Assembly (NCBI GenBank): GCA_002162825.1
Contig: MAAU01000009.1
Span: 1-64,000 of the forward strand
Direction: 5' to 3'
Origin: Gammaproteobacteria bacterium 54_18_T64
Lineage (GTDB): Bacteria; Pseudomonadota; Gammaproteobacteria; Pseudomonadales; Porticoccaceae
DNA: 64,000 nucleotides
Notes under the pieces: generated by a model
The model's database searches: none
What the model was told of the DNA's origin: nothing
Seen by the model: only the letters and a program-made list of their open reading frames with translations
Program-made: the position numbers and the translations under genes
In this document: in pieces, positions 37,754 to 41,736 of the stretch
Layout of the letters: the number at the start of each line of letters is the position of its first letter
How positions within the stretch are numbered: the first letter of the stretch is position 1

Positions 37754-38578
37754 CTACGTAAAAGGCAATACTGGCAAGCGCTTAAAATCCCTACGATACA
37801 ATTGTATTGCGCGCTTTGTCACACTATCAAGCAGCACATCATGACTACTAAAGATTTCACGCAGAGGCATATCGAAATAAATCTTTAAAAAAAGATAGAC
37901 ATCCTTTTTTGTCAGACCAATATCCAGTGATGAAAAATAAATACTGGCGATATCTTTCACCAGCCAGCGGCGCGGCACCACCGCCCTCATTTGAGCGCGA
38001 TGCAAATCGACGAGAAAGAGCCGAGGATCCTGCTTGGCCTTGTCCGGATCCGATGACAAGTCGAGCAAAAAATGACAAATATACAAGTCGCGATGGTTAA
38101 TCCCAGCACCGTGAATCGTCCGCGCTATCATCGCCACCTTACGGATTAAGGCCCGCCGCTCACTGGTTGCCGGCGGCTTACTCGGCCACTGTTCCGCGTA
38201 TTGCGCCAAACTCAAGGTATTACTTAATTCTTCGGTGACCAGAAAAGAAAGTTTTTTTGCAGGATTATGGCCTTTACAACCATAGGCCAGAGCCTTCAAG
38301 GAATCGAGCCCCAACTCGTGAACACGATTAATGGCCAGCCATTCATTCGAGGCCCCGGTGACGGGCATTTTCAATTGTAGAAAATTTTTAATAATTTCTC
38401 GCCAGCCAATACCGGTATGCATCTTGCGATAATAGGTTTTTCCCGCCAGCTGAAACTTCAGGGTTTGACGCCCCTCCTTATCGCGAACCACCTCACCATC
38501 CACCGCTTGCAACAAAGCAAACACATCTTTATCGCGCCAGAGTTCTTGCAGTTCACCCCGGAGAATTAGTTCAGACAC
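37754..38578 (-). CDS. waaP: LPS core heptose(I) kinase
   Basis: KTYYRKMHTGIGWREIIKNFLQLKMPVTGASNEWLAI, INHRDLYICHFLLD, LFLVDLHRAQMR. Confidence 0.95.
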   Translation of the reverse strand: MSELILRGELQELWRDKDVFALLQAVDGEVVRDKEGRQTLKFQLAGKTYYRKMHTGIGWREIIKNFLQLKMPVTGASNEWLAINRVHELGLDSLKALAYGCKGHNPAKKLSFLVTEELSNTLSLAQYAEQWPSKPPATSERRALIRKVAMIARTIHGAGINHRDLYICHFLLDLSSDPDKAKQDPRLFLVDLHRAQMRAVVPRRWLVKDIASIYFSSLDIGLTKKDVYLFLKIYFDMPLREIFSSHDVLLDSVTKRAIQLYRRDFKRLPVLPFT

Positions 38579-39726
38579 TGGCTCGCACTCTTTTCATCAG
38601 CAAGTTTTTCCATAATATCGATAGCTACCTGGGGGCGACTATAAACATCACTCGTCGCGGCAAAATTTTTACCCTTTTGATGCCACTGATCTCCCGACAC
38701 GGTGAGAGCTCGAACAATCGCGGTAACATAATCATCGGCGTTAAAGGGGCTCGTTATTACCGCGCCCATCTCCCCATCTCGCACATAGTGAGCATAGCCA
38801 CAGACATCACTCGCCACCACCGGCAAACCGGCGATCATGGCTTCGAGCAAAGCATTGCCGGTATTTTCTTTATAGGCGGGATGCAGCAGCACATCGGCCG
38901 CCTGCAATAAATTGGGCACATCATCGCGGCCGCCGAGAAAACGTACGCGCTCAACTAAGCCAAGCTTTTGCGCCTGGCGAACAAATGACTCTCGCTTGTC
39001 ATCACCCACTACCAGTAATACGCCATCCACTCCCTGCTCACACAGTGTATGCAAAGCGCTAATACTACGATCCAGGCCTTTGGTTTTATAACCGGAACCA
39101 AGGGCTAAAAAGCACTGTTGGTCGCCAGTTAAGCCCAGGTTCTCGCGAGTTGCGCGGCGAATCTCCCGCCAGTTTTCGGGAGCCACCCGATTAGTGGCAA
39201 TCCCCGGCGGCAAGGTATGAAAGCGATTTTCTGCCGTGCCGTGGCACTGTACAAAGCGCTTTCGCTCGGGGCGAGAAACCTCAAGAATTTGTGTTTTCGA
39301 GTCGGCAGCAAACACCGCTTGCTCAAGTTTTAAATAGGCTTTTGTGCGAGGCGCAAGACGATAGAAAAAGCCTCGTTCGCAATGTGCTTTATAGGAAAAA
39401 CAGGAATCGGCCGCGTAATACAAATCGAGTCCCGGCCACTTATTAAAACCAACCAGTAAATCGTGGCCCTTTAATTTCGGGCCTAGATCGGCGGCAAAAT
39501 TTTCCATACGCGCCGCATTATCCCAGCCTCGTGCAGGGATCACTTGTAGATCAATATCTTCCGGACACTCGCCCTGCCAGGCACTGCAATAAATAGTGAC
39601 GCCATGGCCACGTGTAATAGCCTCCAGGGCCATCGCCAGCATATTGCGCTGCAAGCCACCGAAGGGAAAATACTTGTAGAGTGCGAAGGCAAGCTTCAAG
39701 GGGGGTAGATCATTAGCACCGGCCAT
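38566..39726 (-). CDS. waaG: Glycosyltransferase family 4 (LPS core glucosyltransferase WaaG-like)
   Basis: KLAFALYKYFPFGGLQRNMLAMA, LLVVGDDKRESF, HPAYKENTGNALLEAMIAGLPVVASDVCGYAHYV. Confidence 0.93.
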   Translation of the reverse strand: MAGANDLPPLKLAFALYKYFPFGGLQRNMLAMALEAITRGHGVTIYCSAWQGECPEDIDLQVIPARGWDNAARMENFAADLGPKLKGHDLLVGFNKWPGLDLYYAADSCFSYKAHCERGFFYRLAPRTKAYLKLEQAVFAADSKTQILEVSRPERKRFVQCHGTAENRFHTLPPGIATNRVAPENWREIRRATRENLGLTGDQQCFLALGSGYKTKGLDRSISALHTLCEQGVDGVLLVVGDDKRESFVRQAQKLGLVERVRFLGGRDDVPNLLQAADVLLHPAYKENTGNALLEAMIAGLPVVASDVCGYAHYVRDGEMGAVITSPFNADDYVTAIVRALTVSGDQWHQKGKNFAATSDVYSRPQVAIDIMEKLADEKSASQCLN

Positions 39727-39729
39727 AAG

Positions 39730-40779
39730 TCAGGCTTGTTCGGGTACAGGGGTATCGACAAGCTTGTCCAGCGCCGCTACGACTCGATCTGGATCCAGCT
39801 CTACCAAACACTTTACATCCCCTCGCGGACACTCACGCTGAAAGCAGGGGCCGCAATCGACGGGTACCGACAACACTTCAACACAATCGCCCAACGGCGG
39901 CGTAAAGCCGGGGGAGGTGGAACCGTAAACCACCACCAGGGGTCGCGCCAATGCGGCGCTAATGTGCATTAAGCCCGAGTCGTTACTCACCACCGCAGCG
40001 GCCATGGAGAGTAAATCGATGGCTTCAGACAATTCGGTTTGCCCGGCGAGGTTGCGAATAAACGCAGCATTCGCGCCATCAATGGATGTCGCGATACTAT
40101 CGCCAACGCCGGCATCGCTATCGGAACCCATCAGCCAGACCTGCCAACCGCGCTCGAGCATGGTCTGGGCGACATGTTGGTAGTGAACCTCGGGCCAGCG
40201 CTTGGCGGGACCAAATTCGGCGCCGGGGCACAACGCCAGTACGGGCCGAGACAGATCGATTTCAAACTTATCCCGCAAGGCCGCCAGGGCCGATTCATCC
40301 ACTTGCAGATGGGGACGTGGCAGCTGAGTCGGTAGAGCTTTATCCTCGTCATAAGCCAGAGCGATGAAGCGCTCAATCATCAAGGGGTAGCGCTCTTTAT
40401 CGAGCAGGCGAATATCGTTGAGCAGGCCAAAGCGCATTTCACCGCGCCAGCCGACGCGCAGAGGAATGCCGGCAAAAGCGGGAATTAAGGCGGATTTTAA
40501 AGAATTGGGCAGCACATACGCTTCATCGTAAGCCTGCTTACGCAGCTGCTGCGCCAGGGCCCAGCGTTTGGGCAGAGCCAGTTCGCCGTGACCCACCGGC
40601 ATGGCAATGGCTCCGCTCACCTCGGGCATGCGTTCGAGTAGCGGGCGACTCCAGGCCGGGGCCAGCACGTCGATAATACAGTTGGGGGCTAGTTGTTTAA
40701 GGCTGGTAAATAACGTTTGCGCCATCACCATATCGCCGACCCAGGAAGGGCCGACGATCAGTATTTTTTTACTATTAAT
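39730..40779 (-). CDS. waaF: Lipopolysaccharide heptosyltransferase II; proposed non-canonical ATT start at 40779 (first ATG at 40731)
   Basis: FGPAKRWPEVHYQHVAQ, VSNDSGLMHISAALARPLVVVYGSTSPGFTPP. In-frame upstream codons encode KKILIVGPSWVGD, the expected WaaF N-terminus. Confidence 0.88.
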   Translation of the reverse strand: MNSKKILIVGPSWVGDMVMAQTLFTSLKQLAPNCIIDVLAPAWSRPLLERMPEVSGAIAMPVGHGELALPKRWALAQQLRKQAYDEAYVLPNSLKSALIPAFAGIPLRVGWRGEMRFGLLNDIRLLDKERYPLMIERFIALAYDEDKALPTQLPRPHLQVDESALAALRDKFEIDLSRPVLALCPGAEFGPAKRWPEVHYQHVAQTMLERGWQVWLMGSDSDAGVGDSIATSIDGANAAFIRNLAGQTELSEAIDLLSMAAAVVSNDSGLMHISAALARPLVVVYGSTSPGFTPPLGDCVEVLSVPVDCGPCFQRECPRGDVKCLVELDPDRVVAALDKLVDTPVPEQA

Positions 40780-40806
40780 TAGTGTGTCTCAACTAATAGA
40801 AGATAT

Positions 40807-41736
40807 TTAACCGTCAATCGGCGACAGCCACTCGGGGTGCTCTTCGTTGCGACCGTGCACCGCATCAAAATAAGCCGTTTGCAGCTCAGCGGTAATCGGC
40901 CCACGCGAGCCACAACCAATCTCGCGATTATCCAGTTCGCGAATCGGCAATACTTCGGCGGCGGTACCGGTGAAGAAGGCCTCGTCGGCGATATAGACTT
41001 CGTCGCGTGTAATACGTTTTTCGCGCACCTCGTAACCGCGCTCCTGGGCCATTTGAATCACACTACCGCGGGTGATGCCGTCAAGGCAGGAGGTCAGCTC
41101 CGGGGTGTAGAGAATACCGTCACGCACGATGAAAATATTCTCGCCACTACCCTCGGCGACGTAGCCATCGACATCCAGCAGCAGGGCCTCGTCGTAGCCG
41201 TTCTGCAGGGCCTCGCGCAGCGCCATCATCGAATTCATGTAGTTGCCGTTCGCCTTGGCCTTGCACATGGTGATATTGACGTGGTGGCGGGTATAGGAAG
41301 AGGTATGAATGCGTATGCCCTGCTCGAGGGATTCCGGACTCATATACGAGGGCCATTCCCAGGAGGCGATAATGACGTGGGTCGACAAACCATCGGCGCG
41401 CAGGCCCATGGCCTCGGAACCGAGGAAAGCCATGGGGCGCAGATAGGCCTCTTCGAGATTGTTGGCCTTCACCACATCGAGCTGGGCCTGATTCAGAGTA
41501 TCCTGATCAAAGGGCATGTCCATGCCGACAATTTTTGCCGAGTTATGCAGGCGCTTGGTGTGCTCTTTCAGGCGAAAAATCGCCGTGCCCTTGTTCTCGG
41601 TATTGTAAGCGCGCACGCCTTCAAACACGCCCATGCCGTAGTGCAGGGTATGGGTCAGCACGTGCACCTTGGCATCGCGCCAGGGCACCATCTCACCATC
41701 AAACCAAATAAAACCATCGCGATCTGCAAACGACAT
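40807..41736 (-). CDS. ilvE: Branched-chain amino acid aminotransferase
   Basis: DGFIWFDGEMVPWRDAKVHVLTHTLHYGMGVFEGVRAY, EGSGENIFIVRDG, FFTGTAAEVLPIREL. Confidence 0.97.
   Translation of the reverse strand: MSFADRDGFIWFDGEMVPWRDAKVHVLTHTLHYGMGVFEGVRAYNTENKGTAIFRLKEHTKRLHNSAKIVGMDMPFDQDTLNQAQLDVVKANNLEEAYLRPMAFLGSEAMGLRADGLSTHVIIASWEWPSYMSPESLEQGIRIHTSSYTRHHVNITMCKAKANGNYMNSMMALREALQNGYDEALLLDVDGYVAEGSGENIFIVRDGILYTPELTSCLDGITRGSVIQMAQERGYEVREKRITRDEVYIADEAFFTGTAAEVLPIRELDNREIGCGSRGPITAELQTAYFDAVHGRNEEHPEWLSPIDG

Follow-up and report, generated by a model that had tools for sequence, protein, structure and literature searches.

The waaF gene (LPS heptosyltransferase II, GT9) of one gammaproteobacterial genus lacks an ATG, GTG or TTG start codon, and comparison among species makes it highly likely that its translation is initiated, weakly, at an AUU codon (40779-40777 on the minus strand of the window, by which we mean the whole 64,000-nt stretch of DNA analysed), perhaps with the aid of ribosomes that finish the upstream ilvE gene and re-initiate. 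Fixation of this AUU start in the genus is well supported by the comparison. The product of waaF builds the inner core of the outer-membrane sugar coat, and AUU starts are missed by normal gene-finders and are known elsewhere to keep proteins scarce.

The waaF frame of the window lacks a canonical start

Read from ATT (40777..40779), waaF occupies 39730..40779 of the minus strand (349 codons plus stop) and was identified by TIGR02195, PF01075 and the structure 1PSW. On the same strand, it is preceded by ilvE (branched-chain aminotransferase, identified from its sequence; 40807..41736), whose TAA stop (40809-40807) lies 27 nt 5' of the ATT, and is followed by a putative WaaG-like glycosyltransferase gene (38566..39726). 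An in-frame TGA (40789..40791) sets the upper bound for the start, and from there the minus strand reads TGA GAC ACA CTA ATT AAT AGT AAA AAA ATA CTG ATC GTC GGC, continuing after GGC with CCT TCC TGG GTC GGC GAT ATG, in which the ATG (40729..40731) is the first in the frame. No ATG, GTG or TTG occurs in the waaF frame between the TGA and this ATG. The preliminary description, which had claimed that waaF is without such a start, thus agrees with the window in both sequence and coordinates, and its claim also holds for all six orthologues of the genus.

Translation from the ATG at 40731, with the codons above it left untranslated, would use the first canonical start, which is the choice of standard gene callers. 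We compared proteins read from the two positions with the TIGR02195 profile (cut-off 134.6 bits). The ATT-started protein gave a full-profile score above the cut-off (489.6 bits, positions 1-338 of 339), whereas the ATG-started protein scored 457.5 bits and matched only from position 13, a loss of 32 bits and of positions 1-12. The closest solved structure was E. coli WaaF (heptosyltransferase II, PDB 1PSW, E=3e-111), whose alignment to WaaF of the window begins at residue 2, KILVIGPSWVGD; a start at 40731 would leave out its residues M1 to D13, which form the first strand and a loop with GD at its end; from work on WaaC, we take the Asp of this GD to be catalytically important. The ATG is an internal codon of the GDMVM motif and not the start, and the earlier assertion that beginning there would delete an N-terminal element is confirmed; standard gene callers would cut 16 residues off WaaF, comprising this first strand and loop. 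The codons upstream of the ATG also evolve as protein: comparison of the window with G004 over the aligned frame above it gave 8 synonymous codon changes and no replacement. Translation from 40731 is accordingly extremely unlikely.

Loss of an ATG would also suit the early decay of a gene that is becoming silent in the genus. However, the frame is intact in six species, with a dN/dS of 0.06-0.13 at dS up to 1.5, and such low values across the gene indicated that waaF is functional, so that decay or silence has practically no probability.

ATT is conserved at the proposed start position across the genus

The genus was sampled with seven genomes, one per species, and waaF was found in six of them (the window genome, G002, G003, G004, G005 and G006); the assembly of the seventh, G001, contains neither waaF nor a close ilvE and is uninformative. 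Alignment of the ilvE-waaF junction revealed a canonical start near the motif in none of the six separately assembled species and an ATT in every one, occupying the place of the ATG, GTG or TTG of relatives outside the genus. The codons before KILIVG are TGA GAC ACA CTA ATT AAT AGT AAA in the window, AGA GAC GCG CTA ATT AAC CGT AAA in G005, AGA GAT ACG CTA ATT AAC AGC AAA in G004, AGA GGC ACG CTA ATT AAC AGT AAT in G002, AGG GAT ACT CCC ATT AAA AGC AAA in G006, and AGG GAC ACT CCC ATT AAC ACC CCC GTT AAC AGT AAC in G003. The frame of G002 is open deep into ilvE, and its canonical codons lie at least 25 codons upstream, within ilvE, where they have no counterpart in the other five species.

The longer sequence of G003 reflects a 12-nt tandem duplication at the start region relative to G006 (ACTCCCATTAAC / ACCCCCGTTAAC). 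ATT stayed in the copy that lies 9 nt after UAAGG, and the second copy changed to GTT, an outcome compatible with constraint on whichever codon has the spacing of a start to the ribosome-binding site. The invariance of ATT by itself is modest evidence and only moderately improbable: identity in all six species was seen at only 57 of the 236 conserved codons for residues other than Met and Trp, and at 3 of the 13 for Ile, and the chance of an ordinary Ile codon keeping one form throughout is about 0.2. The case for AUU lies instead in the joint weight of the absence of other starts, the position of the ATT, the coding constraint and the G003 duplication. Absence of a canonical start, conservation of ATT and constraint above the first ATG are all read directly from the sequence.

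Several other explanations of the missing start were weighed. A substitution or assembly error could have removed a canonical codon, and the window does come from a fragmented draft (part of contig C33 of a 2.28 Mb genome, 98 contigs, 83% complete). Five more species, each assembled separately and differing in the sequence around the site, nevertheless show the same absence and all have ATT, so that sequencing error is ruled out by six separate assemblies and its probability is negligible. Another non-canonical codon could be used, namely ATA or CTG, both of which are in frame in the window, or CTA or ACA upstream, and weak initiation at CUG and AUA is known. In relatives, however, ATA is ATC, CTG is CTT or CTC, ACA is ACG, GCG or ACT, and CTA is CCC, and these codons are less suitably spaced from the ribosome-binding site; ATA and CTG are thus discarded as conserved alternatives, and we regard initiation at any of these codons as very unlikely. 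A frameshift in the A7 tract would be no remedy, as had been pointed out before, because the neighbouring frames stop, and A7 is absent from G002 and G003 (AGTAATAAAATC and AGTAACAAAATC). Fusion to or read-through from ilvE was also rejected, since the frame relation of ilvE and waaF differs among species. With ATT conserved in 6/6 and its rivals excluded, AUU initiation at 40779 is the option from the preliminary description that survived.

Canonical starts are present outside the genus

All 103 loci examined from other genera (24 from a family and order sample and 79 from genome_contigs, two sets that partly overlap) carry an ATG, GTG or TTG in the stretch that separates the last stop from the motif, and in several the ATG lies 3-4 codons before KKIL, near the place of ATT-N-S-KKIL here. 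Set against 0/6 within the genus, these counts show that the missing canonical start of waaF is more than chance, and that, among the loci sampled, the change from a canonical codon to ATT is specific to the genus.

In another genus of the same family, one waaF locus (L012, G030:C31, 1460-1520) may start at CTG. It reads GCGGAGACGACA CTG ACT GAT CGA CCG GTG CTA GTC GTT GGA, with GGAG 6 nt before the CTG, and its sole canonical option is the GTG four codons before GPSW, which has no evident ribosome-binding site. This locus may represent a separate CUG case.

Initiation signals and coupling to neighbouring genes

Shine-Dalgarno strength was calculated as the pairing energy with ACCUCCUUA. The window has a weak Shine-Dalgarno-like GAGA (40787..40790, minus strand; sequence and duplex energy) 7 nt 5' of the ATT, and its register is maintained in relatives as GAGA or GAGG, with UAAGG in G003 and G006. 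Pairing energies were -2.7 to -2.9 kcal/mol for waaF of the window (-2.7), G004 and G005, a strength that roughly one in three random coding 18-mers attains, and -5.3 to -5.8 kcal/mol for G002, G003 and G006; for reference, 264 conserved ATG starts in G003 had a median of -4.3, and infC gave about -6.5. The weak site in the window, G004 and G005 speaks against the AUU explanation, given the strong sites usually seen at the non-canonical starts that have been studied well. So does a predicted hairpin in the window (40773-40800, minus strand; CTATTAGTTG...CTAATTAATAG) that contains the ATT and is not common to the relatives. mRNA structure around the waaF start showed no consistent trend.

In each of the six species, the ilvE stop and the ATT are separated by a short gap (24 to about 41 nt), which makes coupling to ilvE possible as an aid. 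In a refinement of the AUU explanation, and not its opposite, most ribosomes on waaF would arrive from ilvE by termination and re-initiation at AUU, so that ilvE translation would set WaaF output. Beyond the short gap, this reading is favoured by the weak ribosome-binding site of three species, and reporters in E. coli indicate that re-initiation can use non-canonical start codons and is reduced by (excess) IF3 (PMC2268962). On the other side, the length of the gap and the frame relation to ilvE vary among species, and the other three have a ribosome-binding site as good as average. We hold such dependence on ilvE to be a tentative possibility, somewhat less probable than its absence.

Taken with the comparison among species, the AUU explanation would run as follows. 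By the time the genus radiated, a canonical start at this place had turned to ATT, which was then retained, and the AUU at 40779-40777 would be read by initiator fMet-tRNA to yield fMet-N-S-K-K-I-L-I-V-G-P-S-W-V-G-D. From the weak codon and the weak to moderate ribosome-binding site, we infer that WaaF synthesis would be low; ribosomes terminating at ilvE 24-41 nt upstream may re-initiate at the AUU, and, by analogy with other AUU starts, initiation would be expected to rise with lower IF3 activity. The downstream glycosyltransferase gene has its ATG 3 nt past the waaF stop (39726-39732) and is probably translationally coupled to waaF; judging from the 3-nt gap, the weak waaF start may limit it as well.

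Comparison with known non-canonical starts

Natural AUU starts besides infC are, to our knowledge, very rare, and waaF would be a new gene for an already known kind of start. In E. coli, infC and pcnB have AUU starts (PMC9410913). The infC start is likewise conserved among species (E. coli and other bacteria), and infC of the genus studied here also has AUU; infC, however, encodes IF3 within a feedback loop and has a good GGAG site, whereas waaF encodes an envelope enzyme and has a weaker site. E. coli pcnB resembles waaF in being unrelated to initiation, and its AUU start is reported to limit translation (Binns and Masters 2002, as cited in PMC9410913). Unlike waaF, pcnB of the genus has an ATG near the family's usual start. 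Streptomyces sigR, with an IF3-repressed GTC start (PMC5472188), is also a gene unrelated to translation, is the first of a coupled pair, and has a genus-wide non-canonical start, but this start is GTC rather than ATT, follows a strong AGGAGGTG site, belongs to a regulator and was experimentally tested. Staphylococcus cvfC1 (AUU) and ccpN (AUA) (PMC13009471) are similarly ordinary genes whose conserved non-canonical starts were overlooked by annotation; they are unrelated to waaF and have an extended strong Shine-Dalgarno sequence together with Ribo-Ret evidence.

By analogy with infC, pcnB and sigR, sensitivity of waaF to IF3 and initiation fidelity is a plausible prediction. It is rather unlikely, in our estimation, that the AUU start places inner-core LPS heptosylation and the coupled glycosyltransferase under IF3 or initiation-fidelity control throughout the genus; if it did, envelope structure would be linked with the condition of the translation apparatus. 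With a reporter, the waaF start could serve as a simple test for tuning of outer-membrane synthesis by IF3. A genus-wide AUU in a core LPS gene would mean that rare starts can become fixed in ordinary metabolic genes.

Probable AUU use elsewhere in the genus

The infC start of the genus reads GGAGAAACACT ATT AAG AAA AGT, with GGAGAAAGATT ATT in G005. ATT with GGAG upstream was present in all six genus genomes where infC was found (L112-L117), and none of these has a canonical start above it, indicating that ribosomes of the genus very probably use AUU; infC is missing from the assembly of the window genome. As a second AUU gene of the genus, pcnB was rejected, with an ATG near the expected start in 7/7 genomes.

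We also screened 2.6 Mb of sequence from three genomes for coding conservation above the first canonical start, using non-overlapping reciprocal best ORF pairs (569 for G003 v G004, 133 for G000 v G004 and 120 for G000 v G003). Among these pairs, waaF was the clearest case and no second convincing gene with comparable conservation was found; infC itself escaped the screen because its copy in G003 is interrupted by a contig end. From this result, waaF and infC look like rare exceptions and not like a sign of loose initiation. One match of 72 codons (G000_C2|-|533) proved to be an antisense frame of a response-regulator-like gene (the complement reads QMAAMDGHALLQ), and the remaining matches look like short conserved leaders preceding a normal start. 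A threonyl-tRNA synthetase-like gene of G003 (C19) and G004 (C1) has, directly 5' of its ATG, about 45 nt that are near-identical between the species and read KWPLVGVTTEIKESK in frame; this stretch is probably a conserved leader and not coding.
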